NCBI GenBank assembly: GCA_028284865.1
Contig: JANQQV010000008.1
Coordinates: 124,001 to 188,000 of the forward strand
Direction: 5' to 3'
From: Rhodothermales bacterium
Lineage (GTDB): Bacteria; Bacteroidota; Rhodothermia; Rhodothermales; UBA10348
Length of the DNA stretch: 64,000 nucleotides
Shown here: piece by piece, positions 39,050 through 63,150 of the stretch
Layout of the letters: every line of letters starts with the position of its first letter
Position numbering within the stretch: the first letter of the stretch is position 1
Made by a program: the position numbers and the translations under genes
Notes under the pieces: generated by a model
What the model was told of the DNA's origin: nothing
Database searches by the model: none
What the model saw: the letters and a program-made list of their open reading frames with translations, nothing else

Positions 39050-41689
39050 CTACTCGACCCGCAGGATGTCAGCCGGGGCGCTGCGCCGAATACTTCGTGC
39101 CTGCGTGGTAATGGTCAGCAACGCTACACTCAGAATGATGCAATACGTGATGACGAATGGAAGGACATTGAGATGCATACTGTAGGCATAGATATCCTGG
39201 ATCAATCGATTCATTCCGGTCCACGCCATGGGGAATGCAATCAAGGACCCGATGGTCATGATGACCAGGTAACGTCTGTTGACGAAATGCGCTATGCCGA
39301 TCGGTGCACCACCCAGAACTTTTCGTATTCCGATTTCCTTCTGGCGATTGATCACGTTTTGTGCTGACAGGGCGTAAATGCTCAAGCAGGAAATGATCAA
39401 TGCGAGGGTGGCCACAAACAGGAAGATCAAGGCGATACCCATGCTCTCTTCCTGAAAGGACTCGAAAACCTGGTCCTGATAGCGCACGCGTACTTCGTCG
39501 CCACCGAATACATCCTTGAAAGCACCATTCAGTGCCAGTACCGTTTCGTTGGTCCTTCCAGGTGCCAATCGAACCGATACCAGACGGTGATCCGTCTCTC
39601 TAACCTGTTCGAACACCGTGGGCTTGATCAGGCTGAAAAAGTCCTCGTGATGGAAATCCGCAACGACCCCGACAATGAGCCGAGGAATGGAATCCAGATC
39701 CACAACGGAACCGACCGGTTGGGAAAGGCCGACCTCATCAACGAATGTCTCGTTGACAACGATGGCCTCCGGACCCGCCGTCATGGTTGAATCAGACAAC
39801 AGGAGGCCTTGTAGAGGTCTGAGCCCGAGAAACGATGCATAGTCGGCACGTCCTCCGAATACGAAGGTCTCGACACCATCCTCTGGAGTGTTTTCGGTCA
39901 CGGTCTGCTGTTCGTTGTAGGAAAAGCCCACGACTTCCCTGCTCGTAGTCAACGCCATGACCCCAGACTGCTGACTGAGGAATTCCGTCAACCACGCCTG
40001 CTGTTCAGCAGAATTGGACTCGAATGAAACCAGCTGCTCTGTATTAAATCCCCAATCCTTGTGGGCCAGATACTGCCCATTCCAGGTCAGAACGATGCCC
40101 ATGGACATGGTCAGAAAGGCCAGCAGGAACTGGATGGCAAGAAACCCATGGGAAAGCGGCCTCCGCTTTCGGAGTTGGAGGCGATGCTGGAAGATGGCTG
40201 TTGGCCGGAACGAGGAGATGTAGAGTGCTGGATACGCTCCTGAGATCAGGCCGATGGACAAGACCAGTCCACCCATGAACAGCCAGACTCTGAGATTCCG
40301 GGTCATTCCGAAATCCAGCTCGTGTCCTGAGATCTGACTGAAGATCGGTAGCAGGCCTTGCCATGCAAGAAGGAGACCCATGATCAGAGCCAAGAGACTC
40401 ATCACGATGTTCTCCGTCAGAAACTGAATGACGAGCTGCTTTCGACTGCCTCCGACAGCTTTCCGGACTCCGATCTCCTTGAGGCGCTTGGTTGCTGTGG
40501 CCATGGAGATGTTCATGTAATTGAAGCAAGCCAGCAACAGAAGCAATCCTGAGATCAGCGACAACACGACCACGGGCGCCCAGGGAATCGAGTTGGCCAT
40601 GCTCCGTTCTACGTTCTCCCTGTTCCAGGCAAGATTGGTGATGGCATCGATGTCATATCGGACGATCTGCCAATCGGGGTTTGCGGCATTCAGCTGATCC
40701 TGCCAATTCTGCAATGCAGATCGAAGGGTCGCCACCGGGGTTCCGGCGACTCGTCTGATGAAAGTGGCATCCACGGTCTGCCTCCACCCGCTCTCGAGTT
40801 GGTCTTCGAGCATCGAAAATGGCATAACCATCAAGTACTGAATGCCCGCTTCCGTCGTGAAAGGCTCCGACACCGCGGCTACCCGGATTTCTTGTTCAGG
40901 TCCGTCGCCGATGGAGAGCGACAGCGATTGCCCGACAGGATCAGCATCACCAAACACGGTTTGAGCCCAGGATGCACTGAGCACAACAGCGGGCTCCGAT
41001 CCAAAGGCCTCAACGCTTCCCGAGGCCGTCGGAAAGGCAAACATCGAGAAGAAATCCGCGTCGGCGAACAGCGCCACCCGCTCAAATTGGTCGTCTCCCC
41101 GAGTCAATTGAACTCGACGCTGTTCCAGTCGCACAACCGAATCAACGAGCGGGGAAGACTCGGCAAGGGCTGGTCCCAATGCCGCAGGAGTATGTCCCCA
41201 CCATTGTTCACCGTCAGATTCCTGCGTCACCTGATGAACCAGCATCAGGTCGTCCACGCGAGGGTGGTGATGGTCCCGCGTCAGAACCTTCGACACGAAG
41301 GCGTACGAGACCATGGTCACGGCAATGGCCACTGCCAGTCCGAACATGTTGATCATGCTCGGCACGCGGTTCTTGCGAAGATTGCGCATCGCTACGCGCA
41401 CATACCCCTTCGCCAGAGACCATTGATACAGGACCTCCGAACGAATCTCTCGGCGATCACGGGTCTTCATCCAAGCAACGCTGCGAAACTCGGATTCCGT
41501 TTCATGGAACGTCCCCAACTCGGCCGTCGCCTCACGAAATGCTTCTTCCTCGCTGTGACCCGCTTCCACCAGGAAGGCGACCTGATCACGCAGGTGCTGT
41601 TCGAGCTCATCAAGGTCACGTCCCTTGAACGCGCGGGAGTACTTGTACTGGTGGCGCCAGGTGGAAAGCGCCTTCTCCAAATTGAACAT
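39050..41689 (-). CDS. FtsX/MacB-like ABC permease with N-terminal prefix domain
   Basis: MFNLEKALSTWRHQYKYSRAFKGRDLDELEQHLRDQVAFL; FtsX regions (LKEIGVRKAVGGSRKQ; QKEIGIRKVLGGAPIG). Confidence 0.92.
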   Translation of the reverse strand: MFNLEKALSTWRHQYKYSRAFKGRDLDELEQHLRDQVAFLVEAGHSEEEAFREATAELGTFHETESEFRSVAWMKTRDRREIRSEVLYQWSLAKGYVRVAMRNLRKNRVPSMINMFGLAVAIAVTMVSYAFVSKVLTRDHHHPRVDDLMLVHQVTQESDGEQWWGHTPAALGPALAESSPLVDSVVRLEQRRVQLTRGDDQFERVALFADADFFSMFAFPTASGSVEAFGSEPAVVLSASWAQTVFGDADPVGQSLSLSIGDGPEQEIRVAAVSEPFTTEAGIQYLMVMPFSMLEDQLESGWRQTVDATFIRRVAGTPVATLRSALQNWQDQLNAANPDWQIVRYDIDAITNLAWNRENVERSMANSIPWAPVVVLSLISGLLLLLACFNYMNISMATATKRLKEIGVRKAVGGSRKQLVIQFLTENIVMSLLALIMGLLLAWQGLLPIFSQISGHELDFGMTRNLRVWLFMGGLVLSIGLISGAYPALYISSFRPTAIFQHRLQLRKRRPLSHGFLAIQFLLAFLTMSMGIVLTWNGQYLAHKDWGFNTEQLVSFESNSAEQQAWLTEFLSQQSGVMALTTSREVVGFSYNEQQTVTENTPEDGVETFVFGGRADYASFLGLRPLQGLLLSDSTMTAGPEAIVVNETFVDEVGLSQPVGSVVDLDSIPRLIVGVVADFHHEDFFSLIKPTVFEQVRETDHRLVSVRLAPGRTNETVLALNGAFKDVFGGDEVRVRYQDQVFESFQEESMGIALIFLFVATLALIISCLSIYALSAQNVINRQKEIGIRKVLGGAPIGIAHFVNRRYLVIMTIGSLIAFPMAWTGMNRLIQDIYAYSMHLNVLPFVITYCIILSVALLTITTQARSIRRSAPADILRVE

Positions 41690-41700
41690 GTTGGATGACC

Positions 41701-42039
41701 TCATCCGTTGGCTGTTTGCTGGCCCCATAGTTCGGCCCAGACAGCATTAACCATTTTCCATTCTTGCTGGACATGAGCCAGCGCTTTCTTACCGTCTTCC
41801 GTGATGCGGTAGTACTTGCGATCCGGTCCTTCCTCGGAGGCCTGCCAGTAGCTTTCCACCCATCCGTCGTGTTCCATTCGATGCAGGATGGGATAAAGCT
41901 TGCTGTTCGACCAGGCGACCTGGCCGTCATAAAGCTGTCGAGCCCGATAGACGAGCTGAAACCCGTACTTGGGCCCTTCCATGAGCATGGACAGGATGAG
42001 TGGCTTGAGCGTGGCGCCGGCCAGCGATTTGGACAACAT
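41701..42039 (-). CDS. PadR-family transcriptional regulator
   Basis: LILSMLMEGPKYGFQLVYRARQLYDG...SKLYPILHRMEHDGWVESYW...DRKYYRITEDGKKAL. Confidence 0.93.
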   Translation of the reverse strand: MLSKSLAGATLKPLILSMLMEGPKYGFQLVYRARQLYDGQVAWSNSKLYPILHRMEHDGWVESYWQASEEGPDRKYYRITEDGKKALAHVQQEWKMVNAVWAELWGQQTANG

Positions 42040-42249: not shown

Positions 42250-42726
42250 TTGTTTTGCCATTATTACTGGCTACAAACCGGGTTTTTCGGTCTCAACGCA
42301 CCCTTAAGGGCATTCAACGCAGCTCCAACGTTGCATCTAAGACGAACCATAGCGGCTTTTTCCTTGCTCACCAGCGTTCTGCTGGGCGGGCTGATTGCGC
42401 CTCTGTCGCACTTCGCCTATATGGCGGTAAGCGACCACTATGACACGTCTGCAGCGGCCGCGCAAGAAATGGCGCATGGTCACGGGCACGAGCATAAGAC
42501 CATTAACCTTGACGGACCCGGGCTGGACGCCGATCACTCGGTAGATCACCTCGAGTGTCCCTATGCCGCGTTTTTCCTGAGCCAGGCATCAGCTGTTTCT
42601 TCAGATGATGCAGGCCTGGCACTGACGTTTTCTTCGACGACGCTGACGGCTGGACCGGTCGCGACACTGACCGCCACCTCCGTCCACATCTCCCCCATCC
42701 GCGGACCACCCGGGCTTCTGGCCTGA
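42250..42726 (+). CDS. Small exported DUF2946-like protein, His-rich
   Basis: Hydrophobic N-terminal segment, MAHGHGHEHK, HLECPYAAFFLS, C-terminal ISPIRGPPGLLA; true start may be downstream. Confidence 0.6.
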   Translation: MFCHYYWLQTGFFGLNAPLRAFNAAPTLHLRRTIAAFSLLTSVLLGGLIAPLSHFAYMAVSDHYDTSAAAAQEMAHGHGHEHKTINLDGPGLDADHSVDHLECPYAAFFLSQASAVSSDDAGLALTFSSTTLTAGPVATLTATSVHISPIRGPPGLLA

Positions 42727-42979
42727 TCCGGTCGCGGAAGAGGTTCCGTCTAGTTTTTGCACAGACGCTCTATCGGTGAGACCGATGGCGGCGTCCCTGA
42801 TGACGCTCATCCTCTGCGAATCGTGCACCGCTGCCCGTGTTCAGGGCATCGCTGCGTGCTCATGACGTGTGCTGGCTTTCAGTCGCCCGTTCCGGAAAGG
42901 CCTTCCTGTCCCCGAACGCCCCTGCGCCTCCATCCGGCGCGACTGTTATTCCATTGACATTTCTATCCGCATTTTCGTC

Positions 42980-43825
42980 ATGAAAGCACTTCGTACGTTT
43001 TTCCTCCCTGCCCTGATTGCCTCGGTCCTGCTGGTTGGCTGTGACGCCAGCGATATGGGCAATGAAGAAGTAGATCTCACCCTTCGCCTGGAGGGCCTCT
43101 TCGACGGACAGCAGCTGACCGGTCAGGTGTTCGAGCACAATGGTGCAAACATCACGCTCGAGTCAGCCCGCATTTACCTCTCCGAGATTTCCCTGACGAC
43201 GGCCGATGGCGAAGTCATCACATTCGAATCCGATGCCATCACGGTCCCGGCCAAGGATGCCAATGACAACGACGTCTCCCACACCGTTACCGACAAGATC
43301 ATTCTTGCCAAGCATGACCTGGGCATGGAAGACTACCACCTCGGCATGGTCCCGGAAGGCGATTACACGTCGATGTCGTTCCGCCTCGGTATTGTGGGCA
43401 TGGACAACCGTATTGATGCCTCCCAGGTACCTTCGAATCACTCGCTTGCCAAGCAGACAGACAAGAACAACCACTGGAACTGGGCCAACGGCTACATCTA
43501 CCTTCGCGTCGATGGCCAGGTTGACACGGACGGTGATGGCACGGTGGACGAAGACTGGAATGCCCACATCGGCAAGGACGACTTTTCCCGTGTAATCACC
43601 CTGGATACCAACTTCACGTTGGACCATGAGACCGGCAACGAAGTGCACGTGATGGTGGATTACCACGACATGTTGCACATGGTCGACCTGGCTGATCCTG
43701 CAGAGCGCGTTACGCACACGAGCAACAACCTTCCGATGACGAACAAGATCATCGGAATGGTGGACAGCGCATTCATGCTGCATGGTGTTCACATGAGTGA
43801 ACACGACCACGATCACAACCACTGA
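42980..43825 (+). CDS. mbnP: MbnP-family copper-binding periplasmic lipoprotein
   Basis: Lipobox LLVGCDAS; VDLTLRLEGLFDGQQL...ARIYLSEISLTTADGE...NNHWNWANGYIYLRVDG; HDHDHNH tail. Confidence 0.85.
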   Translation: MKALRTFFLPALIASVLLVGCDASDMGNEEVDLTLRLEGLFDGQQLTGQVFEHNGANITLESARIYLSEISLTTADGEVITFESDAITVPAKDANDNDVSHTVTDKIILAKHDLGMEDYHLGMVPEGDYTSMSFRLGIVGMDNRIDASQVPSNHSLAKQTDKNNHWNWANGYIYLRVDGQVDTDGDGTVDEDWNAHIGKDDFSRVITLDTNFTLDHETGNEVHVMVDYHDMLHMVDLADPAERVTHTSNNLPMTNKIIGMVDSAFMLHGVHMSEHDHDHNH

Positions 43826-43827
43826 TC

Positions 43828-44835
43828 GTGACGCGTCGCGTCCACATACTCATCGCTTTTGCGCTGGGTATTTCGCTTGCGGGATGCGGGATCGCGGACT
43901 CTGACGTCCGCGATCCCGCAGTCCTCGATGTCCCGACTGGATTCGAGCCCATCCCGATCCCGGATCACAATCCGCTGACTGCGGAGAAAGTGGCACTGGG
44001 AGAACGGTTGTTCTTTGATCCACACCTGTCGGAAACGGGCACCGTGTCATGCGCCTCCTGTCACCTGACGGAAGCAGCCTTCGCGGACCCACGACCGATC
44101 TCCATTGGTGTCCACGGACGTATCGGCGAGCGCAATTCCCCCAGCCTTGTGAACATCGGGTACATCAACCTGCTGTTCTGGGATGGTGGTGCACTGACGT
44201 TGGAAGCTCAGGCCCTGGCGCCGCTGGAAGCCGACTTCGAGATGAACATGAATCTCGGAGATCTGATTTCGCGCATCGGTGAGGATCCTTCCTATGCGGC
44301 CGAATTCGATGAGGCTTTCGGCGAAGGACCCTCGATTCAGAACGTGACGCAGGCGCTGGCCTCGTTCCAGCGGACCATCCGAAGTGGGGGGTCGCGATTC
44401 GATCGTTTCGAGGCTGGTGCGGTGGACGCATTGAGCGCTGCGGAGCGGCGTGGGATGGAGCTCTTCAACGGCAAGGCGAATTGTGCCTCCTGTCATGCAG
44501 GCTTCCTGTTCACCAATCAGGCATTCGAGAACAACGGGGTGGCCTTCACCTATCCCGACTCGGGACGAGCCCGCATCACGATTGACCCGGCAGACTTCAT
44601 GGAATTCCGGGTCCCTTCGCTGAGGAATGTTGAGAAGACGGCTCCATACATGCACGATGGCCGATTCGCGACTCTCGAAGACGTTATCGAACACTATGAC
44701 GAAGGCGGAAGCGATGTCCGAAACAAGAGCGCATTGATCGAGCCTCTTCGCCTTACAGAATCTGAGAAGGGTGACCTTGTCGCCTTCCTTCACACATTGA
44801 CTGACGAAGTCATTTTGACCGGCCTTGCGCCGTGA
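43828..44835 (+). CDS. mbnH: MbnH-like di-haem cytochrome c peroxidase-family protein
   Basis: Two CxxCH motifs (VSCASCHLTEAAFADP, NCASCHAGFLF); NIGYINLLFWDGGALTLEAQALAPLE; 2 nt after mbnP. Confidence 0.85.
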   Translation: MTRRVHILIAFALGISLAGCGIADSDVRDPAVLDVPTGFEPIPIPDHNPLTAEKVALGERLFFDPHLSETGTVSCASCHLTEAAFADPRPISIGVHGRIGERNSPSLVNIGYINLLFWDGGALTLEAQALAPLEADFEMNMNLGDLISRIGEDPSYAAEFDEAFGEGPSIQNVTQALASFQRTIRSGGSRFDRFEAGAVDALSAAERRGMELFNGKANCASCHAGFLFTNQAFENNGVAFTYPDSGRARITIDPADFMEFRVPSLRNVEKTAPYMHDGRFATLEDVIEHYDEGGSDVRNKSALIEPLRLTESEKGDLVAFLHTLTDEVILTGLAP

Positions 44836-44842
44836 CAAGACC

Positions 44843-45634
44843 ATGACCCTAACCAAATTGTCAGCACTGACCAGGCTTTCCCTGCTGTTGGTTCCACTGA
44901 TATTCGTGGCCGGATGCGCCCCGGATATCGCGGAAACCGACTTCTACAGCATGCACCCCGATCCCGACGCGGGCTCGGCTGCGGAAGTTGTCCTGCTCGA
45001 CCATGTCGAGTCCGGTACACAACTGACGCTGGTCGCCCGGGAAGCACTTGGATGGGGCTTCAATGCCTTCCGCGTGGAAGCAGCTGAAGGATGGCAGTCG
45101 ATTTCCCCAGCACTCGTATACGAGGTGGGTGCCAGTCGATGGACGTCTCCCCTCTCCTCTGAAATCTCCGATGGAGCGGGCGTGATGTATGCCGTCCCCC
45201 CTCCCGTTGAAGGAGGCGAGTGGTTCCTGGAAGTCTCCGGCTCGACGAGTGCAGGCTCCCTGTCGCTTCGGGTACCCGTCACGGTTGAAGAAGACATCTG
45301 GGTTCGGCCCGCCAACGCATCGGATCTCATCGTGGCGTGGGTGGCTCCAACCGCGCCCAAGACGGGCAATGACGATTTCGAAGTGGCTTTGTATCGCTAT
45401 GTGAACGGCCAGTTTGAAGCCGTCACCAACGCATCCCTCGATCTTTACCCGTACATGGATATGGGAGGCGGTGAAGGGCACAGCACGCCGTATTCCGCAC
45501 CGACACACGTTGGCGGGGGTCGATACAAGGGTGATGTCAACTTCATCATGTCCGGCGGCTGGGACATGACCGTCATCGTTACGCTGAACGGCCAAACCGA
45601 GGAAATCGTGTTTGCCGGATTCACGGTGCAGTAG
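44843..45634 (+). CDS. YtkA/FixH-like domain lipoprotein
   Basis: Lipobox IFVAGCAPD; C-terminal YMDMGGGEGHSTPYSAPTHVGGGRYKGDVNFIMSGGWDMTVIVTLNGQ is YtkA-like. Confidence 0.75.
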   Translation: MTLTKLSALTRLSLLLVPLIFVAGCAPDIAETDFYSMHPDPDAGSAAEVVLLDHVESGTQLTLVAREALGWGFNAFRVEAAEGWQSISPALVYEVGASRWTSPLSSEISDGAGVMYAVPPPVEGGEWFLEVSGSTSAGSLSLRVPVTVEEDIWVRPANASDLIVAWVAPTAPKTGNDDFEVALYRYVNGQFEAVTNASLDLYPYMDMGGGEGHSTPYSAPTHVGGGRYKGDVNFIMSGGWDMTVIVTLNGQTEEIVFAGFTVQ

Positions 45635-45645
45635 AGAGGAATCAA

Positions 45646-47928
45646 ATGAGAATACCTGGAATCACATCCTTCACGACTCGGCAGTCACTGCGCCTTTGGA
45701 TAGGTGCACTGCTGCTGGCCGTGGTAAGCGCTGCGCCATCATTTGCTCAGGACGAACAACCCTTGCTGGGGGTCGTGCTGGACGACTTGTCCGGGCAACC
45801 GATCCCATTGGCCACCGTCATCGTGACCGGGACGCAGTATGGAACGGCAGCCGACTATGATGGGCAATTTGAGCTACTCCTTCGTCCCGAGCACCACATG
45901 CTCCGGATTTCGGCCCTGGGATATGCTTCTCGGGTCGTCCACATCACGTCAGAAATGCGGGATGGTGGGTCGATGACGATCCGGTTGGAGCCGTCAGTCA
46001 TCAATGTTGACGAGGTTGTTGTGGCCGGAGATCGCGCACGCGTCGATGACCCATCGGCCTCCTCGCACAATCAAAATGCGACCGAGGATTTGATGGATCG
46101 CATTCCGGGAGCCGACTTCCTCCAGCGTGCCAACATTGCCTGGGAGCCGGTCATCCGGGGAATGAATGGCGGGCAGGTAGGCGTCGTGATTGACGGAATG
46201 AAAGTGGTTGGTGCCTGCATCGACCGAATGGATCCAACGTCGGCATACGTTGAGGTAGAGAATCTGGAACGCCTGGAGTTGACCAAAGGCGGATTTGACC
46301 TGAACATGGGTTCGCAGATTGGCGGTACGGTCAACCTGATGACTCAGCGTCCTTCGTTCGATGAGGACCCGTTCATCACTTCTGAAGTGGGCTTCGAATC
46401 GGCTTCGATGCTTCGCCGCGGGCGTGTATCGGCCGGCATGGCAAAAGGAAAAACGAGTGTCCGAGGGAGCTGGTCCTACCGCATCGCTGACGACTTCACC
46501 GCTGGTGGAGGTCAGTCGCTGGCCAACTCCGGCTACGAGAAGAACAATTACAAAATCGACGTCACCCGGATGCTCAATCACGCACATCAGGTGACAGGTT
46601 CGTTCCTGGCTGACAACGCCTGGGGTGTCGGATATCCCGTGCTGCTCATGGATGCGACGCTTGCCAAGGCGCGCATCGGAAGCGTCACCCACAATTGGGA
46701 GCGTCACACGGCCACGCGTGGCCTGAAGACGGCCGAAACGAGGATCTATCACAACACGGTCGATCACTGGATGGACGATTACCAGCGGGACGTGTTCGAT
46801 CGCCCGGTGATGCGCGGCATGTACATGCCCATGTTTGGCAATACCCAGACATCCGGGCTGATTTCGAACTGGGGATTCCGCTTCGGTCCGAGCCGCATGA
46901 ACCTGACATTGGACGCATACCAGACCGACAGTTTTGGCGATATGTGGATGTTCTCCGTGTTCGAGAATATCCAGGACATGTATCTCCTGAACCTCGGAGA
47001 CATCCGAGTTCGTCACGGAGCTATTGCAGCCGATTGGTCGACGCCTCTGGCGGACAACCTGGTCGGTCGTCTGAATGCCCGCTGGGACTACTCGACCCGC
47101 GACGTTTTGCGTGACGAAGCTGTGGCCATTCTTCAAGGCCGCTGGGGTGATGGAGACCTGGCGCGCACTTACTCGTTCGGCAACATCAGCGGAACGATCG
47201 ACTATGCGCTCAATCCGATTACCCGGCTCCATCTGAGCCTCGCGCATGTGGCCCGACTGCCCACTCATGTGGAGAACTACGGCCACTACGTCTACAATTA
47301 CGTCGACGGATTCTTCTATACGGGCAATCCGAACCTCAAGCCGGAGCGCTCGAACCAGATGGAGATTGGCGTCGAGCGATGGACTTCGCGGTATGGTCTG
47401 ACGGCTTCCGTTTACGGCAATTGGATCCAGGACTACATCGTAGGTCTGGCAGACGACGGTCTTTCCGACAACGAGATCTATCGCTTCCGAGTATACCAGA
47501 ATGCGTCCTCCGCAACCCTGGTTGGATTTGAGCTCAGTGCTGTCGCAGACATCGCGCGTGGCTTCTCCGTGGCCGGCTCGTCTTCGTACACTCGTGGCCA
47601 GAATCATGAGTTGGACGAGCCCATGTTCCTGATTCCGCCGCTCAGTGCGCAGCTCGCGCTGCGATTTGATCAGCCCAAGTACTGGGCCGAAATCGAATCG
47701 CGAATGGCCATGCCCCAGGAGCGTGTCGCCAGACAGATTGCCGTGGAAGACGTGACCGATGGCTACTTCATAGTCAACATGCGCGGTAGCTACACGGTGC
47801 GCGAGACGACGTCATTGCGATTCGGAATCGACAACCTGTTCGATACGTTCTATCACGAGCACCTGAGCTTCGGCAACCTGCCCAACGAAGGTCGCAACGT
47901 GTACCTTTCGGTATCGCACACACTGTAG
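45646..47928 (+). CDS. TonB-dependent receptor, OprC/NosA-like candidate copper receptor
   Basis: Carboxypeptidase-like N-domain, plug (IDGMKVVGACIDRMDPTSAYVEVENLERLELTKGGFDLNMGSQIGGTVNL), C-terminal barrel ending VYLSVSHTL. Confidence 0.88.
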   Translation: MRIPGITSFTTRQSLRLWIGALLLAVVSAAPSFAQDEQPLLGVVLDDLSGQPIPLATVIVTGTQYGTAADYDGQFELLLRPEHHMLRISALGYASRVVHITSEMRDGGSMTIRLEPSVINVDEVVVAGDRARVDDPSASSHNQNATEDLMDRIPGADFLQRANIAWEPVIRGMNGGQVGVVIDGMKVVGACIDRMDPTSAYVEVENLERLELTKGGFDLNMGSQIGGTVNLMTQRPSFDEDPFITSEVGFESASMLRRGRVSAGMAKGKTSVRGSWSYRIADDFTAGGGQSLANSGYEKNNYKIDVTRMLNHAHQVTGSFLADNAWGVGYPVLLMDATLAKARIGSVTHNWERHTATRGLKTAETRIYHNTVDHWMDDYQRDVFDRPVMRGMYMPMFGNTQTSGLISNWGFRFGPSRMNLTLDAYQTDSFGDMWMFSVFENIQDMYLLNLGDIRVRHGAIAADWSTPLADNLVGRLNARWDYSTRDVLRDEAVAILQGRWGDGDLARTYSFGNISGTIDYALNPITRLHLSLAHVARLPTHVENYGHYVYNYVDGFFYTGNPNLKPERSNQMEIGVERWTSRYGLTASVYGNWIQDYIVGLADDGLSDNEIYRFRVYQNASSATLVGFELSAVADIARGFSVAGSSSYTRGQNHELDEPMFLIPPLSAQLALRFDQPKYWAEIESRMAMPQERVARQIAVEDVTDGYFIVNMRGSYTVRETTSLRFGIDNLFDTFYHEHLSFGNLPNEGRNVYLSVSHTL

Positions 47929-47957: not shown

Positions 47958-48323
47958 ATGATTCCGGCCGATATCAAGGAAATGGCGAAACACGACCCGC
48001 TGGTCGCCGAATTGTTGGCGATCGGTGGCCCGTTTTTCTACAACGACTATCAGCGAATGCGGTCCGGTGATTCTGAATGGGTGATGCGTGATCGGGCCAA
48101 GAAAGCTCGTTGGGCGTTCGTTTTCTTTGTGATTCTCTGGGGGATCTACCTCACCTTTTTCTTGATTACCACCTTCAGATACGAGGCTGACTGGATTGCG
48201 CAATTGCTGCGACTCCTCAGTGCAGGTCTGTATGGTGGAGCCGCATGGTTGATCTTCCGAAACATGCGGCGACTTGAAGAGGTCATCGCACGCATTGACG
48301 CCGGCGAATTCTCGACGGATTGA
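47958..48323 (+). CDS. Small hypothetical membrane protein
   Basis: 121 aa, two hydrophobic segments; immediately downstream of TonB receptor. Confidence 0.6.
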   Translation: MIPADIKEMAKHDPLVAELLAIGGPFFYNDYQRMRSGDSEWVMRDRAKKARWAFVFFVILWGIYLTFFLITTFRYEADWIAQLLRLLSAGLYGGAAWLIFRNMRRLEEVIARIDAGEFSTD

Positions 48324-50663: not shown

Positions 50664-51293
50664 ATGGGCGTCGCAGAACGTCGACTCAGGGAAAAAGAGG
50701 CTCGCAAGACTACCATCCTGCATGCGGCAGAGAGGGTTTTCTTCGCAAGTGATCCGGATACAGCCACCATGGACGAGGTGGCTGATACGGCAGAGTTGTC
50801 GAAGGGGCTACTCTACCACTACTTCGGCAGCAAGGATGAACTTATCCATGCCATCGCTCACAAAGGGCTGCTGATCATGCAATCCATGTTCAGGGAGGTC
50901 CTCGATTCCGAGGGCGATGGGTTGACCAAAGCCCGAGGAATGGGCGAAGCGTACATCCGTTTCGCTAAACAGTATCCCGATTACTTCCGGATTTTCACGT
51001 GGGCGGAGACGAGGGGCCATTCATCAGGCTCAGTAGGTGAACACACCGAAGCCTGTCACCTCGTTGGCGACTCGTGTATCGGTATGGTAGCTGAAGCGGT
51101 CCAGATCGGCATTGATGATGGGACCATCCGACCGGAATTGAATCCTATCGAAACGGCCATCACGCTGTGGGCGCAGACCCACGGAGTGATTGAGATTTCC
51201 CAACGGAAGCGCATGCGCGAACGCAAGATGGTGGATGAAAACCAATTGCAGCGTGCCAGCCTGGACATGATGCAAAAGGGCCTCAAGGCTTGA
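50664..51293 (+). CDS. TetR/AcrR-family transcriptional regulator
   Basis: KTTILHAAERVFFASDPDTATMDEVADTAELSKGLLYHYFGSKDELIHAI. Confidence 0.95.
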   Translation: MGVAERRLREKEARKTTILHAAERVFFASDPDTATMDEVADTAELSKGLLYHYFGSKDELIHAIAHKGLLIMQSMFREVLDSEGDGLTKARGMGEAYIRFAKQYPDYFRIFTWAETRGHSSGSVGEHTEACHLVGDSCIGMVAEAVQIGIDDGTIRPELNPIETAITLWAQTHGVIEISQRKRMRERKMVDENQLQRASLDMMQKGLKA

Positions 51294-51384
51294 GGCTCAC
51301 GCTCCCCCCGTTCGGCCCCTGAATGCGAACACGTTGCATTGAAGCGAAACTTTTTCTTCGATCTCCGTAACACCTGACACTTCA

Positions 51385-51399
51385 TTGACTCTGAGTCAA
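51385..51399. promoter_or_regulatory. Palindrome TTGAC-tctga-GTCAA
   Basis: Second of four copies; between tetR and tolC-like gene. Confidence 0.75.
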
Positions 51400-51449
51400 T
51401 GATCACCTTCCTCCCAGTGGCCTCGAGCCACTCTTTTTTGATCACAAGA

Positions 51450-51464
51450 TTGACTGATAGTCAA
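51450..51464. promoter_or_regulatory. Palindrome TTGAC-tgata-GTCAA
   Basis: Third of four copies; overlaps the first nucleotide of the ORF-track ATG at 51464. Confidence 0.75.
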
Positions 51465-52936
51465 TGTCTGATTTCAAGTTAACCAGAAGCCCCCTCGGGT
51501 CCGGCCCACTGTTCCAGCAGCGTCCTGCCGTTTTTTTTGGACCGCTCGTTGACCGCGAGTCAATAATCGGTTCAAAGTCGGCATTCGCCGGGTTGGCCGT
51601 GGCATTGTTCGCCGCATTGGCCTTCGCTTCACCCTTGCACGCGCAATCCATGTCACCCATGGAGGCCTATGTGTCGATGGGGCTCGAAACCAACCCTACC
51701 CTGCTTTCGACGCGAGCGGCCCTGGCTGTGAGTGAGGCCGCCTCGGCGGAGTCTCGCAATGCCTACATGCCCAGCCTGGGCCTGCAGTCCCGCTACACAC
51801 GCTCGGCCGGAGGTCGCACCATCGAATTTCCCGTGGGGGACCTGCTCAATCCGGTGTACGGAGCTCTGAACGGGCTCACTGGATCATCTTCCTTCCCCGC
51901 AATCCAGAACGAGGAGATCCGGTTTCTGAGAAAGACCGAGCAAGAGACCAAGGCCAATTTGATTCAGCCGCTCTTCCTCCCCGGAGCTTCAGCCTGGCGT
52001 CGCGCAGCCTCAGCCGATGCAGACCGGGTCGGAGCATCTCTGGCCTCCCTGGAGCGGGACCTTGCAGCGGGTATTCGGGATGCGTACCTCTCGTGGATTC
52101 AGGCAGGACAGGCCGTACAGATTGTGGAGGCGGCTCAAGCACAGTTGGAAGAAGCCCATCGGTCGACCTCCGCTCTACTCGACAACGGCCTGGCGACCAA
52201 CGATGCCTTGTTTCGCATCGAAGCGGACCTGTCCGACATTCGTCAACGGCTGGCCGTCGCGAAGAACCAAGTGGAGTTGGCGGCAGCGGCCCTCAACACG
52301 CTGTTGTCGCGCCCGATTGACACACCAGTCGACTCCATCGAAATCGCTGCGCTCGAAGCGGATCTCCGCGTCTATTCGGAAAGCCGGCCCTCCAGCATTG
52401 ACGATCGTCCGGAGCTGAAAGTGCTGGACGCGGCAGACGACGCAGCCTCAGCCGGAATTACCCAGGAACGGAGCGGGAGACTGCCTCAGGTAGTCCTCGC
52501 TGCCGACTGGGGAATCCAGGGAACGCGATACACCTTCGCCGACGACAGCGATTTCCGTACCGCTTCGGTTGTAGCCACCTGGACCTTGTTTGACGGACGG
52601 CGGCGCTCGGCCCGCATCCAGCGGGCCGAGGCGCAACAGCGCCAGGTAGCGGCCCAGCGCGCTGCCGTGGTGGACCAGCTGGAATTGGAAGTACAGGCTG
52701 CCCGCTGGCGGCTCGAACTGGCCGAATCCAACGTGCTGGCAGCGCGCGATGGCCGCACCAGCGCCGCCTCCGCCTTCCGCCTGACCGAACGTCGCTACAA
52801 GGAAGGAATGGCCACCGTGCTCGAGCTCCTCGACGCGAGACGCGCGCTCACGCTCGCCGAACAACAGGTACTTATCACACGCGTGGACGTGCTACGCGCC
52901 CTGGTCGAGCACATCCGCGTGACGACCACGATCTGA
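51464..52936 (+). CDS. TolC-family outer-membrane efflux protein (true start probably downstream of 51563)
   Basis: Signal peptide FAGLAVALFAALAFASPLHAQ; coiled-coil TolC pattern, C-terminal RRYKEGMATVLELLDARRALTLAEQQ. Confidence 0.9.
   Translation: MSDFKLTRSPLGSGPLFQQRPAVFFGPLVDRESIIGSKSAFAGLAVALFAALAFASPLHAQSMSPMEAYVSMGLETNPTLLSTRAALAVSEAASAESRNAYMPSLGLQSRYTRSAGGRTIEFPVGDLLNPVYGALNGLTGSSSFPAIQNEEIRFLRKTEQETKANLIQPLFLPGASAWRRAASADADRVGASLASLERDLAAGIRDAYLSWIQAGQAVQIVEAAQAQLEEAHRSTSALLDNGLATNDALFRIEADLSDIRQRLAVAKNQVELAAAALNTLLSRPIDTPVDSIEIAALEADLRVYSESRPSSIDDRPELKVLDAADDAASAGITQERSGRLPQVVLAADWGIQGTRYTFADDSDFRTASVVATWTLFDGRRRSARIQRAEAQQRQVAAQRAAVVDQLELEVQAARWRLELAESNVLAARDGRTSAASAFRLTERRYKEGMATVLELLDARRALTLAEQQVLITRVDVLRALVEHIRVTTTI
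51549..51563. promoter_or_regulatory. Palindrome TTGAC-cgcga-GTCAA
   Basis: Fourth copy; lies inside the ORF-track N-terminal extension of the TolC-like ORF. Confidence 0.7.
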
Positions 52937-53031
52937 CCACCGGCCATTGCATCTCACGATGTGACGCCCACAATCTGAAAGCCCCTACCGCTTCCTCCCC
53001 AGGACTCTCCAGACCTCAGCTCATCAGCATC

Positions 53032-54081
53032 ATGACTGCATCCATCAAAACTCTCTCCCTAACCGTGCTTCCGATCCTGGCCCTTTCCGTGATCGTGGCC
53101 GGGTGTTCATCCCGTGCCCAGGAAGCGACTGTTCCTGCGGCCACTCCTGTGAAGACCGTGACGGTCACCCAGTCCACCGCAACAGACGCTGTCCAGACGG
53201 TCGGGACGGTTGAACCAGCATCGACCGTCGATCTCTCCTTCAAGATCGGTGGCCCAATTGCACGCATCCTGGTTGATGTTGGCGACCGCGTCCAGAAGGG
53301 ACAGGTACTCGCTGAACTGCAGACGGCAGAGATCGATGCCGCGGTCCAGCAAGCCACTGCTGCGCGGGACAAGGCGCTGCGCGACTTCGATCGCATGGAG
53401 CGGCTCTATGCCGACAGCGTCGTCACACTGGCTCAGTTCCAGGATGCCCAAACCGGCCTGGATGTGGCCACCGCCCAGCTCGAATCAGCGGCCTTCAACC
53501 GCACCTACGCCACCATCACCGCGGAATCAGCTGGTCGGATCATGACTCGGAAGGCCGAGCCGGGACAGATGATTTCCTCGGGCAAAACGGTCCTCAGCAT
53601 GGGTCTGACCTCTCAATGGGTTGTGGCCGTGTCCCTGTCCGACATGGATGCCGCTTCCCTTTCGGTTGGTGACAAAGCGACCCTCACGCTGGACGCATTT
53701 CCGGGGGAATCGATTTCAGGTCGCCTGGTCGAAATCGGCGAGATGGCTGATGCCCGAAGCGGCACGTTCCGTGCCGAGATCGCACTGGAGTCCAGATTGC
53801 CGTTTCGCGCCGGTTTTGTGGCCCGCGCATCCATCCAGCCGTCGTCAAGCACGCCGCGAACCATCATCCCTTCAGAAGCGCTGGTTCGTGCCAATGGACA
53901 TTCGGGCGAGGTCTTTGTCATGAATCGGGAGGCTGGCACGGCTGAAGCGCGCTCGATCCGGATTGGCTCCATCCTCACGGAAGGCGTGACGGTTACCGAA
54001 GGGTTGGCGCCCGGCGAAGAGGTCATCACGGATGGCGCCGCCTATGTCTCCGATGGCTCGCCGATTGCCGTTGCCCGATAG
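53032..54081 (+). CDS. RND efflux periplasmic adaptor (MFP)
   Basis: Lipobox VIVAGCSS; VDLSFKIGGPIARILVDVGDRVQKGQVLAELQTAEID; IIPSEALVRANGHSGEVFVMN. Confidence 0.95.
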   Translation: MTASIKTLSLTVLPILALSVIVAGCSSRAQEATVPAATPVKTVTVTQSTATDAVQTVGTVEPASTVDLSFKIGGPIARILVDVGDRVQKGQVLAELQTAEIDAAVQQATAARDKALRDFDRMERLYADSVVTLAQFQDAQTGLDVATAQLESAAFNRTYATITAESAGRIMTRKAEPGQMISSGKTVLSMGLTSQWVVAVSLSDMDAASLSVGDKATLTLDAFPGESISGRLVEIGEMADARSGTFRAEIALESRLPFRAGFVARASIQPSSSTPRTIIPSEALVRANGHSGEVFVMNREAGTAEARSIRIGSILTEGVTVTEGLAPGEEVITDGAAYVSDGSPIAVAR

Positions 54082-54115
54082 CTCTGCCTCGACTTCATCC
54101 TGATCGAAACCTGTC

Positions 54116-57100
54116 ATGTCTTTCATCCGATTCATTCTCGATCGCCATCAGTTTACACTGGTTGTACTGATGCTGCTGGCTGCGCTGGGACTCTCGTCAT
54201 ATTTCTCGATGCCTCGCGCCGAAGATCCCCAGTTCAACTTCCCTGCGGCGACGGTCATTGTCATCTACCCCGGCGCCAGTCCCGAAGATGTGGAGCAGTT
54301 GGTGGCCGACCCGCTCGAAGAGTCCATCAATGAGCTTGAGGACCTGAAAAAGGTCCAGACCACCATTCGCGACGGCGTGGCCGTCACGTTCGTGGAATTC
54401 TTCCAGGGCGTGGATCCCGATGATGCCTTCAGCGATGTCCAGGATGCGGTCAAGAACGCTGAGCGCGAGCTGCCAGGAGAAGTGGCCGATATCCAGGTCC
54501 TGCAGCAGTCACCTTCGGACGTGAACATCCTCCAGGTCGCGCTCATTTCTTCGGACGCGGACTATGGCTTGCTACGCCGCGAAGCCGAACGGCTTGAGCA
54601 GACGTTCGAGCGCATTCCATTGATCAAGCGCGCGGAAACGTGGGCTTTCCCGGATGAGGAAGTTCACATCGCGCTCGACTTTGAACGAATGCGGACCGTC
54701 GGTATCGCGCTCCCCGAAGTCATCCGTGCCATTCAGACCACGGGCGCCAATATCCCCGGCGGCGATCTGGATCTGGGCCGAACACGCTACAACGTCAAGA
54801 CCAGCGGAGACTACGGCTCACTGGAAGACATCCGTCGCACCGTGATTCGCGGATCGGGTTCATCGGCCGTGTTCCTGGAGTCCATCGCGGACGTGGATTT
54901 CGGCTTTGCCGATGAGTCCTACCGGGCGCGTGTCAACGGGGAGCGGGCGGTCTTCGTCACAGCCGTTCAGCGCGAAGGGACCAACATTCATGACGTCACG
55001 GCACTGGCGCGTGAGGCGTTGACCGGTTTCGAACAGCGCGTGCCCGAGGAAGTCCGCGTCGAGTCCGTGTTCGTCCAGGAAGACAGCGTGTCTGAGCGCG
55101 TCGGCGGCTTCTTTGCCAATCTCTTTCAGGGCGTCCTGCTGGTCGGCATCATCGTGTTTCTGGCGATGGGGTTACGCTCGGCTGGAATCGTCATGCTGGC
55201 CATTCCGTTTTCCCTCTTGATCGCCATCGGATGGCTCGACTTCAGTGGATTCGGGCTGCAGCAGATGTCCATCGTAGGCCTGGTCATAGCGTTGGGTCTG
55301 CTTGTAGACAATGCCATCGTGGTCACCGAGAACGTCGAACGATTCAAATCCATGGGGCTCTCCTCGCGTGAGGCGGCGCTCAAAGGTGCCGGACAGGTGG
55401 CAGGTCCCATCATCAGCGCGACGATCACGACCATCCTGTCATTCCTTCCGATGGTCCTTCTCCAGACGGGTACGGGAGACTTCATCCGTTCCATGCCCCT
55501 CATGGTGATCTTTGCGCTTGGTGCCTCCCTGATCGTTTCCCTCACCCTTACTCCCCTACTAGCCGGTGCATCTCGTCGGCGTAAAACCGAAAACGGCGAG
55601 GACGTCACCCGCGAGCGGAAGGCTACCTGGCTCAATCTCCAGCTCGAAACCATTGCCAAAGGTCGCTACACTCGCCGCCTGCGTCAGGCCGTCGCGAGGC
55701 CCGGCCTCGTCATCGTTGCTGCGGTCGTCGTGTTCGCAGGATCCATGGCCCTGTTCCCATTCGTGGGTGTCAGCCTCTTTCCCCGCGCTGAGAAGCCCTA
55801 CCTGATGGTCAACGTGGACCTTCCGGAAGGTGCCAGCCTGGATCGTACGGATTCCATCGCCCGTCAGGTGGAGGATGTTCTTCGGGAAAACGAAGGCATT
55901 ACCGATCTGATCACGAATGTGGGTCACGGGAATCCGCGCATCTACTACAACGTCGTTCCCGAGCGAGATAACGCGGCTCACGCGCAGATCATCGCGGGCC
56001 TGGCCTCCGCCTCGCCGACGGCCATCACCGAACGCATTGAAGAACTGCGACGCAGTCTCCGGGAAATCCCCGGCGCCCAGATCCAGGTCAAGGAATTCAT
56101 GCAGGGACCGCCTGTGGAAGCCCCGATTGCCATCAGCATCGTCGGTAATGATCTCAGCGTGCTGCGCAACGAAGCAGCGCGCATTGAGCAGGTCCTTCTG
56201 GACGTTCCGGGTACAATCGACGTCGATAATCCATTTGAGCGATTCAAGACTGACCTGAAGGTGGACATCAACCGCGACAAAGCCGGATTGCTGGGCGTTT
56301 CCCTCGATGCTGTGGATCTGACCGTTCGCTCGGGCCTCGCAGGTCTGCCGGTAACGTCATTCCGGGACGAGCAGGGCGAAGACTATGAGGTCGTCGTTGG
56401 ACTGCCATCAGAGGGCCGACCGGGAATCGATGCCTTCGACCGGCTCCACGTCGTCTCGAATCTGGGAGGCACCGTGCCTGTTCGCCAGGTCGCCTCGCTG
56501 TCATTCGAATCGAGTCCGTCCCTGATCCAGCACCGAGACCTCGAGCGCATCGCAACCATCACGGCCGACGTTGTGCCTGGTGCCAACGTGGCTGAGGCCA
56601 CGGCCGCCGCAATGGACGCCCTTGCCGACGTCAATCTTCCCACCGGATATCGCTACCTGGTCGGCGGCGAAGAGGAAAGCCGGGCTGAATCCTTCGGCGG
56701 AATGGGCCAGGCGCTGCTGATCGCCCTGCTCGGCATCTTTGCGGTGCTGGTCCTCCAATTCCGTTCGTTCCGTCAGCCGGGCATCGTGTTCGCTGCCATC
56801 CCGTTTGCCATAACCGGCGCCATCCTGGCACTGCTGATCACCGGGTACACATTCTCCTTCACGGCCTTCATCGGGCTCACGTCGCTGGTCGGGATTGTGG
56901 TGAACAACTCGATCATTCTGGTCGACTATGCGAACCAGTTGTTGCAGGAAGGGAAATCCGTCCTGGATGCGATTGTTGAAGCCGGACAAACCCGATTCAT
57001 TCCCATCATCCTGACCACGCTGACCACGATCGGTGGCCTGCTGCCGCTGACTTTGACCGGCTCGAGCATGTGGGCGCCCATGGGGTGGGCCATCATTGGT

Positions 57101-57190
57101 GGCCTGATCGTTTCGACCGTGCTGACACTGGTTGTGGTTCCTGCGCTCTACGCCCTACTCACCAAAGCACCTGAGTTCGAGATCGCGTAG
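54116..57190 (+). CDS. RND efflux permease (AcrB/MdtB-like)
   Basis: 1024 aa; YPGASPEDVEQLVADPLEESINELEDLKKVQTTIRDG; GLLVDNAIVVTENVERF; GIVVNNSIILVDYANQLLQEG. Confidence 0.97.
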   Translation: MSFIRFILDRHQFTLVVLMLLAALGLSSYFSMPRAEDPQFNFPAATVIVIYPGASPEDVEQLVADPLEESINELEDLKKVQTTIRDGVAVTFVEFFQGVDPDDAFSDVQDAVKNAERELPGEVADIQVLQQSPSDVNILQVALISSDADYGLLRREAERLEQTFERIPLIKRAETWAFPDEEVHIALDFERMRTVGIALPEVIRAIQTTGANIPGGDLDLGRTRYNVKTSGDYGSLEDIRRTVIRGSGSSAVFLESIADVDFGFADESYRARVNGERAVFVTAVQREGTNIHDVTALAREALTGFEQRVPEEVRVESVFVQEDSVSERVGGFFANLFQGVLLVGIIVFLAMGLRSAGIVMLAIPFSLLIAIGWLDFSGFGLQQMSIVGLVIALGLLVDNAIVVTENVERFKSMGLSSREAALKGAGQVAGPIISATITTILSFLPMVLLQTGTGDFIRSMPLMVIFALGASLIVSLTLTPLLAGASRRRKTENGEDVTRERKATWLNLQLETIAKGRYTRRLRQAVARPGLVIVAAVVVFAGSMALFPFVGVSLFPRAEKPYLMVNVDLPEGASLDRTDSIARQVEDVLRENEGITDLITNVGHGNPRIYYNVVPERDNAAHAQIIAGLASASPTAITERIEELRRSLREIPGAQIQVKEFMQGPPVEAPIAISIVGNDLSVLRNEAARIEQVLLDVPGTIDVDNPFERFKTDLKVDINRDKAGLLGVSLDAVDLTVRSGLAGLPVTSFRDEQGEDYEVVVGLPSEGRPGIDAFDRLHVVSNLGGTVPVRQVASLSFESSPSLIQHRDLERIATITADVVPGANVAEATAAAMDALADVNLPTGYRYLVGGEEESRAESFGGMGQALLIALLGIFAVLVLQFRSFRQPGIVFAAIPFAITGAILALLITGYTFSFTAFIGLTSLVGIVVNNSIILVDYANQLLQEGKSVLDAIVEAGQTRFIPIILTTLTTIGGLLPLTLTGSSMWAPMGWAIIGGLIVSTVLTLVVVPALYALLTKAPEFEIA

Positions 57191-57736: not shown

Positions 57737-58171
57737 ATGCTCTCCAGCGCCTGCAGATATGGAATCCTGGCCTCGATTCATCTGGCTCGTCAAGATGCTG
57801 ATGGATTCGTACCGGTTCGCCAGATCGCCTCGAGCCTGGAAGTATCCGCCCCCTTCCTCTCGAAGATCATGCAGCAGCTGGTCAATGAAGACCTGCTGGA
57901 CTCACTCAGGGGGCCCACCGGGGGCGTCAAGCTTGCTCGCTCACCCAAGGATATTCGCGTGAACGACATCGTTCTGGCCATCGATGGCCGCAAGATGCTG
58001 GAATCATGTGTTCTGGGTCTCCCTGGATGTGGTTCCAATGCGCCGTGCCCCATGCATGCAGATTGGGCGGTCGTCCGGGAAAGTTTCTGCAAAATGCTGG
58101 AAGAAACCACGCTAGCTGACTTGGCAAAGGACACGGACGCAAACGGCCTGCGCCTCACACCAACCGGCTGA
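57737..58171 (+). CDS. Rrf2-family transcriptional regulator, putative Fe-S/NO sensor
   Basis: ACRYGILASIHLARQ...FVPVRQIASSLEVSAPFLSKIMQQLVNEDLLDSLRGPTGGVKLAR; Cys cluster CVLGLPGCGSNAPCPMH. Confidence 0.93.
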   Translation: MLSSACRYGILASIHLARQDADGFVPVRQIASSLEVSAPFLSKIMQQLVNEDLLDSLRGPTGGVKLARSPKDIRVNDIVLAIDGRKMLESCVLGLPGCGSNAPCPMHADWAVVRESFCKMLEETTLADLAKDTDANGLRLTPTG

Positions 58172-58185
58172 CCTTTTTTTATCCC

Positions 58186-58201
58186 TATTAAGGACTTAAT
58201 A
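58186..58201. promoter_or_regulatory. Candidate Rrf2 operator upstream of nos operon
   Basis: TATTAAG-GA-CTTAATA perfect inverted repeat between rrf2 and cytochrome c gene. Confidence 0.65.
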
Positions 58202-58236
58202 CTCTTTTATCCTCTGACTCATTCGCGTACATCCTC

Positions 58237-58698
58237 ATGAACCGCTCCATCCTACCTCTGCTCGCTCTCGTTCTCCTTTGCTTCGGCTGTGGATCAGGCA
58301 CGCCCGAATCGGCCGGCTCCACTGATGCTCCCGCAACGACAGCCGGACTGACAGAAGAACAATTGGAACACGGCATCGGACCGATTGAGGCCTTCGATCC
58401 CGGCCCTCTGGACGACGCCCTGGCTGACAAAGGCCTCGAGGTCTTCAACCTGAAGTGCTCAGCGTGTCACAAGATGGAAGGACGCTACGTGGGTCCCGAA
58501 ATGGGCACGATCGCAAATGAACGCTCTCCTGCATACATCATGAACATGGTGCTCAATCCCGCTGAGATGATTGAGAAACACCCTGAGGCGAAAAAGAAGT
58601 TCGCCGAATTCATGACGCCCATGCCCAACCAGAACATTTCCGAGGATGAGGCCCGCGCCATCCTGGAGTATTTCCGCCGCGAAGCCGCCTCTCGTTGA
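58237..58698 (+). CDS. Mono-haem c-type cytochrome lipoprotein of nos cluster
   Basis: Lipoprotein signal LLCFGCGSG; LKCSACHKMEGRYVGPEMGTI...MTPMPNQNISEDEARAILEYF. Confidence 0.9.
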   Translation: MNRSILPLLALVLLCFGCGSGTPESAGSTDAPATTAGLTEEQLEHGIGPIEAFDPGPLDDALADKGLEVFNLKCSACHKMEGRYVGPEMGTIANERSPAYIMNMVLNPAEMIEKHPEAKKKFAEFMTPMPNQNISEDEARAILEYFRREAASR

Positions 58699-58754
58699 GG
58701 CCGCCTTCTGAGCAGCTACCGAATTCCACCCCAACAACAGTCTGGTGCACAGAT

Positions 58755-60707: not shown

Positions 60708-60756
60708 GACTGGTGAATGACTCTGGTGGAGAACGCCGGAGGATGATTTGACCGCG

Positions 60757-60785
60757 GTTCGGGGGCCGCGCAGCGGCCCCCGAAC
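60757..60785. other. Perfect 13-bp hairpin between nosZ and nosL-fusion gene
   Basis: GTTCGGGGGCCGC-gca-GCGGCCCCCGAAC; no good T-tract. Confidence 0.7.
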
Positions 60786-60830
60786 ACCGTTTGGACCACG
60801 ACTTACACTCCCCTTTAAACGACCAAACAC

Positions 60831-61853
60831 ATGACGCAACGTAGCCGCATCATTCTCGCCCTTGCTGGCCTGATGCTGGTTGTGATGTACGTCGCACCGC
60901 TGTGGCGCATCGAGCTGGAAGCGCCTCAGTATCCGGAAGGACTCGGTCTGCATATCATGATCGATGACATCCAGGGCATCAGCGAATTCGACCTGATGAA
61001 GATCAACCAGCTCAATCACTATATCGGGATGCAGGAAATCGTCCCGGACGCTATTCCGGAGCTGCGAATCATGCCCTGGCTGGTCGCCGGATTGATTGGT
61101 CTCGCGCTCCTGGCTGCAGGCACTGGCTCGCGACTCCTGTTTACCATGTGGGTCAGCCTGTTCATGCTGACCCTGATCGTTGGCCTCGTCGACTTCTGGT
61201 TATGGGAGTACGATTACGGCCACAACCTGGATCTGGAGCATGCCGCCATCAAGGTGCCAGGCATGTCGTATCAACCTCCCCTCATCGGATCCAAGCAGCT
61301 ACTCAATTTCCGCGCGACCTCCTGGCCGGCATTGGGTGGTTGGACTGCCGTGATCTCATGCTTGACCGGCATGATTCTTTGGTGGAAAACACGCCCAGCC
61401 CGTCAGAGCGGAAGCTCGACCACATCGGTCGCTGCAGCAGCCTTGCTCGCGCTGACCGTGACGGCTTGCACCCCCGGACCTGAAGCCTTCCACTTTGGAG
61501 AAGACATCGGTGCACATTGCCGGATGCCCATTTCCGATACCCGATTCGCCTCTCAGGTGGTCATGGATACTGGCAAGGTCTACAAATTTGACGCCATCGA
61601 ATGCATGGCTAACTGGTTGGCTGCCCATGACCAGGAAGCCGTGCACTCCGTCTGGGTCTCAGATGCCCTGGGCTCCGGGACGCTGATCGAAGCCGATGAG
61701 GCCGTCATCGTGCGCAGTGAGGATATCCGTTCGCCCATGGGAGCAGGATTGGCTGCTTTCCAGACCCGGGAAGCCGCCGCAGAAGCCATGGGCGAAAGCC
61801 CCATGGAAATCCTGTCCTGGAGCGCCCTCGTTGCTGAATCGCCAGCTGCCTGA
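60831..61853 (+). CDS. Fusion: N-terminal nos-cluster membrane protein + C-terminal NosL-like copper chaperone
   Basis: N-terminal hydrophobic segments and WRIELEAPQYPEGLGLHI; C-terminal TACTPGPEAFHFGEDIGAHCRMPISDTRFASQVV...NosL-like. Confidence 0.85.
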   Translation: MTQRSRIILALAGLMLVVMYVAPLWRIELEAPQYPEGLGLHIMIDDIQGISEFDLMKINQLNHYIGMQEIVPDAIPELRIMPWLVAGLIGLALLAAGTGSRLLFTMWVSLFMLTLIVGLVDFWLWEYDYGHNLDLEHAAIKVPGMSYQPPLIGSKQLLNFRATSWPALGGWTAVISCLTGMILWWKTRPARQSGSSTTSVAAAALLALTVTACTPGPEAFHFGEDIGAHCRMPISDTRFASQVVMDTGKVYKFDAIECMANWLAAHDQEAVHSVWVSDALGSGTLIEADEAVIVRSEDIRSPMGAGLAAFQTREAAAEAMGESPMEILSWSALVAESPAA

Positions 61854-63118: not shown

Positions 63119-63150
63119 CCCTCCCCCCTTTTCACCCGACCTGCGGCTCC

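Follow-up and report, generated by a model that had tools for sequence, protein, structure and literature searches.

A five-gene operon in this Rhodothermales genome joins two separately widespread modules, an MbnP-MbnH pair and a YtkA-receptor pair, behind a leader gene, and its sequence supports well a role in copper acquisition. Our joint reading, to which we give a probability of about 0.7, is that an OprC-type receptor would import copper, a YtkA-domain lipoprotein would receive it, MbnP would be oxidised by MbnH, and a CruR/CutF-type arrest leader would govern synthesis. Coordinates refer to the window, the whole 64,000-nt stretch of DNA that was analysed.

An earlier reading of this DNA, made without database searches (here the sequence-only reading), had proposed five co-directional genes with gaps of 2, 7 and 11 nt between the last four. 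All five are present on the + strand, from 42331 to 47928, and the proposed gaps (MbnP/MbnH/YtkA/receptor) are exact; in order from gene 1 to gene 5, the gaps are 253, 2, 7, and 11 nt (Table 1). Every gene passes its curated Pfam cut-off, DUF2946 marginally. The narrower NCBIfam models are matched below cut-off by MbnP (TIGR04052, 41.5 against 140 bits), MbnH (TIGR04039, 268 against 363), and the receptor (TIGR01778, 168 against 472), indicating that these three proteins are diverged relatives. The HMM check of the proposed families thus came out in their favour for Pfam and fell short for NCBIfam, and we counted the latter against the joint reading. Measured against the nearest relative, dN/dS is 0.05 to 0.26 across the five genes, rough ratios with dS near saturation, indicating that all five are under protein-level selection. 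Promoter-like sites were no more numerous than in shuffled sequence, and a plasmid search for MbnP gave no match.

Table 1. Features of the operon, in window positions
Feature	Positions	Strand	Details
CruR/CutF-like leader (DUF2946), 131 aa	42331..42726	+	TTG start; PF11162 24.2 bits against a cut-off of 23.7; homologues in 8/14 joined loci
Cys76 codon of the leader	42556..42558	+	Position of the first Cys of the CruR CXXC; CPYA here
RGPP arrest-type motif of the leader	42700..42711	+	Four residues before the C terminus; RGPP/RAPP/RDPP in 8/8 homologues
Long gap after the leader, 253 nt	42727..42979	+	133-243 nt in relatives
MbnP-like lipoprotein, lipobox LVGC	42980..43825	+	ATG start; PF20243 92.3 bits against 27
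WNW motif of MbnP (W166, W168)	43475..43483	+	Candidate Trp for oxidation; W166 in 51/51, W168 in 48/51 MbnP sequences
H196 of MbnP	43565..43567	+	Candidate metal ligand; 51/51 MbnP sequences
MbnH-like di-haem MauG-family lipoprotein	43828..44835	+	GTG start; CCP_MauG 185.9 bits against 25.6; CXXCH at residues 75 and 219, W118, Tyr290
YtkA-domain lipoprotein, lipobox VAGC	44843..45634	+	ATG start; PF13115 38.8 bits against 25.9; motifs by alignment
OprC-type TonB-dependent receptor with N-terminal CarboxypepD_reg domain	45646..47928	+	ATG start; TonB_dep_Rec 109 bits against 27; OprC 6fok, E 3e-29
Copper-site motif CxxxM of the receptor (C191, M195)	46216..46230	+	Aligned with OprC C143, M147; kept in all joined loci
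Copper-site motif HxM of the receptor (H374, M376)	46765..46773	+	Aligned with OprC H323, M325; kept in all joined loci

Among 60 related genomes, 12 carry a relative of MbnP, and across the phylum PF20243 is matched in 96 of 394 genomes. To the window locus we added 51 further PF20243 neighbourhoods, giving 52 loci in which all reading frames were scored with profiles of the window genes. MbnH adjoins MbnP in 52/52, bearing out the pair that had been claimed. In 38 of the 52 loci, the sequence retrieved around the pair showed neither a YtkA gene nor an OprC-type receptor; contig ends truncate some of the neighbourhoods. The remaining 14 are joined loci (MbnP-MbnH together with YtkA-receptor; the cassette), 12 of them complete and two split by contig ends (L022 with L110, L023 with L129). 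Reverse sampling from the receptor family, with 40 loci fetched, found YtkA directly beside a receptor bearing the Cys/Met/His/Met site, with neither MbnP nor MbnH, in 20. The existence of MbnP-MbnH loci lacking the receptor and of YtkA-receptor loci lacking MbnP-MbnH identifies two separate modules, of which the window operon is a fusion.

The order MbnP-MbnH-YtkA-receptor is common to 13 of the 14 joined loci, as far as contigs reach, and is found, though patchily, in further genera and families of the order; the exception, L088, has YtkA-receptor-MbnP-MbnH. A failure of the genes to co-occur in relatives had been named beforehand as grounds for refuting the operon proposal, and they do co-occur. 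On an MbnH tree of 59 rows, the joined label needs three changes, all three forced by well-supported branches, and L088 lies away from the clade of the window. Three label changes could in principle equal one gain and two losses; the reversed order in L088 argues for a separate joining. The modules were probably brought together on two or three occasions, one of them in the reverse order.

The receptor lends good support to copper as the metal. Its best relative among solved structures is OprC, and the four OprC residues that are changed in mutant chains among the listed solved structures fall on identical residues in the window protein. In OprC, these Cys, Met, His, and Met residues coordinate copper, and Cu(II) is no longer bound once the Cys is lost (PMC8610252). 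All four ligands are kept by every receptor of a joined locus, complete or contig-split, but not by unlinked or unrelated receptors nearby. We read the ligands from the profile alignment, a first MAFFT alignment of all receptors having misplaced M195 behind a gap. TIGR01778 was rejected as a specific receptor probe: no genome among the 394 of the phylum reaches its cut-off and general receptors match it in 377 of them, so receptors were instead recognised by their ligand positions. Among distant OprC-like receptors (L130 to L146), no YtkA neighbour was detected, and Gly replaces the Cys in five. The window receptor resembles OprC of P. aeruginosa and NosA of P. stutzeri in its CxxxM-HxM ligands and, by sequence, its TonB receptor fold (PMC8610252), and P. 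aeruginosa oprC is likewise preceded by a cruR homologue (PMC9426467). It differs from both in lying below the TIGR01778 cut-off, in its extra N-terminal domain, and in its pairing with YtkA and MbnP-MbnH.

We also considered an operon for another metal, such as zinc or nickel, or for defence against excess copper. CutF-like leaders with only His motifs precede nickel/cobalt genes (PMC9973294), so the metal specificity of a leader is not to be assumed, and CutF itself raises multicopper oxidase production in response to copper (PMC9973294). However, the Cys/Met/His/Met site of the window receptor is complete and of copper type (PMC8610252), and import through a TonB-dependent receptor is the opposite of detoxification, making either alternative very improbable. 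Copper acquisition independent of methanobactin, as the sequence-only reading had proposed, is supported both by the retained OprC ligand set and by a whole-genome search for the MbnB family, which found nothing in a genome that is 98% complete by its own estimate.

The neighbouring lipoprotein carries its YtkA domain as the C-terminal third, with the motifs YPYMDMG-GHSTP and MSGGW conserved in the alignment. In B. subtilis, oxidases are loaded with copper with the help of YtkA/CtaK, a membrane-anchored lipoprotein, and of the YtkA domain in YcnJ (PMC13344008). The window protein shares this domain but places it in a longer lipoprotein that is coupled to an outer-membrane receptor.

The first gene most likely encodes a CruR/CutF-type leader peptide, judging by its anatomy. 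The sequence-only reading had treated it as a structural copper-handling member of the operon and had spoken of both a DUF2946 protein and a small His-rich exported protein, which are one and the same gene. The start it placed at 42250 is probably wrong, since alignment with homologues sets the start at the TTG at 42331, where one relative has GTG. That reading was right about gene content and metal and probably mistaken about the role of this gene. In Bordetella pertussis, the nascent chain of CruR, a DUF2946 protein, stalls ribosomes at a C-terminal RAPP; once its CXXC perceives copper, the stall is released and the copper receptor encoded downstream is shut off (PMC9426467). The Cys-to-RAPP spacing is nearly fixed among CruR proteins (49 residues in CruR itself), and a long gap then leads into the operon (PMC9426467). 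CruR arrest has been demonstrated in vitro, and the arrest support for RGPP is even stronger than that for RAPP (PMC12992588).

The window leader has a hydrophobic N terminus, a His-rich middle (MAHGHGHEHK), and a single Cys, which lies 48 residues from RGPP. All eight cassette leaders (window and seven relatives) keep this spacing at 47 to 49 residues, end in RxPP, and are followed by a gap of 133 to 253 nt; several also have a His directly before the Cys. The second Cys of CXXC is missing from all eight, so we call the leader CruR-like and do not file it as CruR. Eight other DUF2946 matches in the phylum, those judged to look like true leaders, keep the CXXC 46 to 51 residues from RxPP, and most precede a TonB receptor. 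The change is thus a mark of the cassette, and a putative sensor with one Cys and His-rich sequence in place of CXXC looks new. Copper-related RAPP/RGPP leaders were reported missing from Bacteroidota (PMC12992588), whereas many CutF-like proteins were counted there (PMC9973294); the window leader sides with the latter.

A different role for this gene, as an exported His-rich periplasmic copper carrier, would fit its hydrophobic N terminus, its His-rich stretch, and the weak purifying selection that acts on it. It is nevertheless the fastest evolving of the five genes (dN/dS against the nearest relative); a C-terminal RxPP, a fixed Cys spacing, and a long gap before MbnP, against 2 to 11 nt elsewhere in the operon, also count against a carrier, and CruR is thought to be short-lived and to have no further function (PMC9426467). 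We therefore regard a carrier as improbable. Rather less unlikely, though still doubtful, is a decayed leader that no longer senses copper once CXXC is lost, its arrest merely holding the operon on. The uniform loss of the second Cys is in keeping with decay, as is the B. pertussis double Cys-to-Ser mutant, in which expression was kept and copper control was lost (PMC9426467). Retention of the first Cys, the spacing, and RxPP across a large divergence instead points to a kept function, and the His that directly precedes the Cys in several homologues also speaks against decay.

The preferred reading, a functional leader, has observations counted against it as well: in addition to the lost CXXC, an RxPP leader was not found before six of the 14 joined loci, L088 among them. 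Nor was one found before YtkA-receptor pairs without MbnP. The RNA of the leader gap folds more stably than shuffled sequence (z-score of -3.4), and the window has a hairpin with a T-run at 42734. A conserved intrinsic terminator or attenuator was rejected, since comparable sites are missing from some relatives and lie elsewhere in the rest; an Rfam search returned nothing relevant. Like the cruR-crtA (bfrG)-PepSY_TM operon of B. pertussis and other cruR operons (PMC9426467, PMC12914433), the window operon has DUF2946 first, then a long gap and a TonB-dependent copper receptor. It differs from that of B. pertussis in a leader lacking CXXC, in a receptor of OprC rather than CrtA type, and in having MbnP, MbnH, and YtkA in place of PepSY_TM.

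MbnP and MbnH were described by the sequence-only reading as known from methanobactin loci, yet pairs outside such loci have been on record since 2013 (PMC3621798), and OprC-type receptors and MbnPH-like genes are already listed in cruR operons (PMC9426467). As in methanobactin producers (PMC3621798), the window MbnP lies next to an MbnH of the di-haem MauG type, with a TonB receptor close by; in contrast to them, the genome lacks a detected MbnB, MbnP and MbnH fall below their NCBIfam cut-offs, and the operon includes an OprC-type receptor and YtkA. Among solved structures, MbnH comes closest to 6e1c ("Di-heme enzyme"; E 3e-56), which is the MbnH of M. trichosporium. Inspection gives a lipobox, LAGC. 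Both CXXCH motifs (C75 and C219) are conserved, and the distal Tyr290, where CCP has its Met ligand, is found in 56 of 60 sequences. Going by alignment end points of 293 to 297, Tyr290 presumably matches MauG Tyr294.

Within MbnP, W166 and H196 are invariant and W168 nearly so. In CorA and MopE, two His bind the copper close to a kynurenine that derives from Trp, and a MauG-like partner is suspected of making it (PMC3912023). By analogy, W166 in the WxW motif is the leading candidate for the modified residue, and H196 is a candidate metal ligand. The CorA-CorB and MopE-SACCP systems of methanotrophs resemble the window pair in that a copper protein is teamed with a di-haem protein of the MauG type; they are copper-repressed, and CorA is on the cell surface (PMC3912023). 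MbnP is not markedly similar to these proteins in sequence (PMC3621798), nor did we obtain a match, and their operons as described have no receptor, whereas the window operon has one. Sequence comparison of MbnP with solved structures gave chance matches only and none to solved copper proteins, which we counted against the joint reading; a structure model (three-sequence alignment, mean pLDDT of 41) was discarded. The C-terminal HDHDHNH to which the sequence-only reading drew attention is present but was over-read, as the alignment confines it to near relatives.

We propose that the operon is expressed under copper shortage, most likely. Because CutF and CruR show opposite responses to copper, the sign of this regulation is our inference. 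The nascent leader peptide would stall the ribosome at RGPP and couple metal sensing to the four downstream genes. The receptor would move ionic copper across the outer membrane via its CxxxM-HxM site, and the YtkA lipoprotein would take it over in the periplasm. MbnH would oxidise a Trp of MbnP, with W166 the best candidate, and the modification may create or tune a copper site through which MbnP captures copper at the envelope or surface. In Bacteroides, surface lipoproteins hand vitamin B12 directly to the receptor. A more speculative possibility, which we hold only tentatively and consider unlikely as a whole, is a chelator-free surface machine in which oxidised MbnP hands copper to the receptor and a new class of one-Cys, His-rich arrest sensor sets synthesis.

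The window also contains a clade II nos operon, which begins at 58695, 11 kb downstream of the copper operon (NosZ, TIGR04246, 934 bits); genes for an Rrf2 regulator and a cytochrome c lie ahead of it. Such an operon would consume much copper. Among 60 relatives, NosZ occurs in 4/9 that have the cassette and in 20/51 that lack it, which is no excess, and NosZ as an obligate client was rejected.

None of the parts of the operon is new in kind; what looks new is their combination and the altered leader. Copper scavenging by Gram-negative bacteria is poorly understood, and what the widespread MbnP-MbnH pair does in bacteria that make no methanobactin has been described as a mystery. Finding the pair in one operon with a copper-ion receptor makes that role testable, and the cassette leaders offer a natural CruR-type set with a defined sensor change, which may help in learning how nascent peptides read metals.

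The genes around the copper cassette are listed below. The PadR regulator and permease genes are divergent relative to the cassette; the small membrane protein gene lies immediately 3' of its receptor gene and is weakly conserved in a related locus, L020.

Features flanking the copper cassette (window coordinates)
Feature	Position	Strand
PadR regulator and MacB/FtsX-type permease	39050-42039	-
Small membrane protein	47958-48323	+
TetR regulator, then RND efflux trio (outer-membrane channel, HlyD_D23 adaptor, AcrB-type pump)	50664-57190	+
Clade II (Sec-dependent) nitrous oxide reductase (nos) operon (Rrf2 regulator, cytochrome c, NosZ, NosL-domain protein, NosD, ABC ATPase)	57737-63888	+

The clade II nos operon, a system with a demand for copper, lies 11 kb from the cassette.

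Among the more distant OprC-like receptors, those of loci L132, L135, L136, L139 and L141 carry Gly where the copper-binding Cys would stand (GMHM); they may handle only Cu(I) or have a different specificity. In the related loci L079, L087, L093 and L099, two MbnH-like genes adjoin either a single MbnP gene or two of them, which suggests that enzyme and substrate form paralogous pairs.
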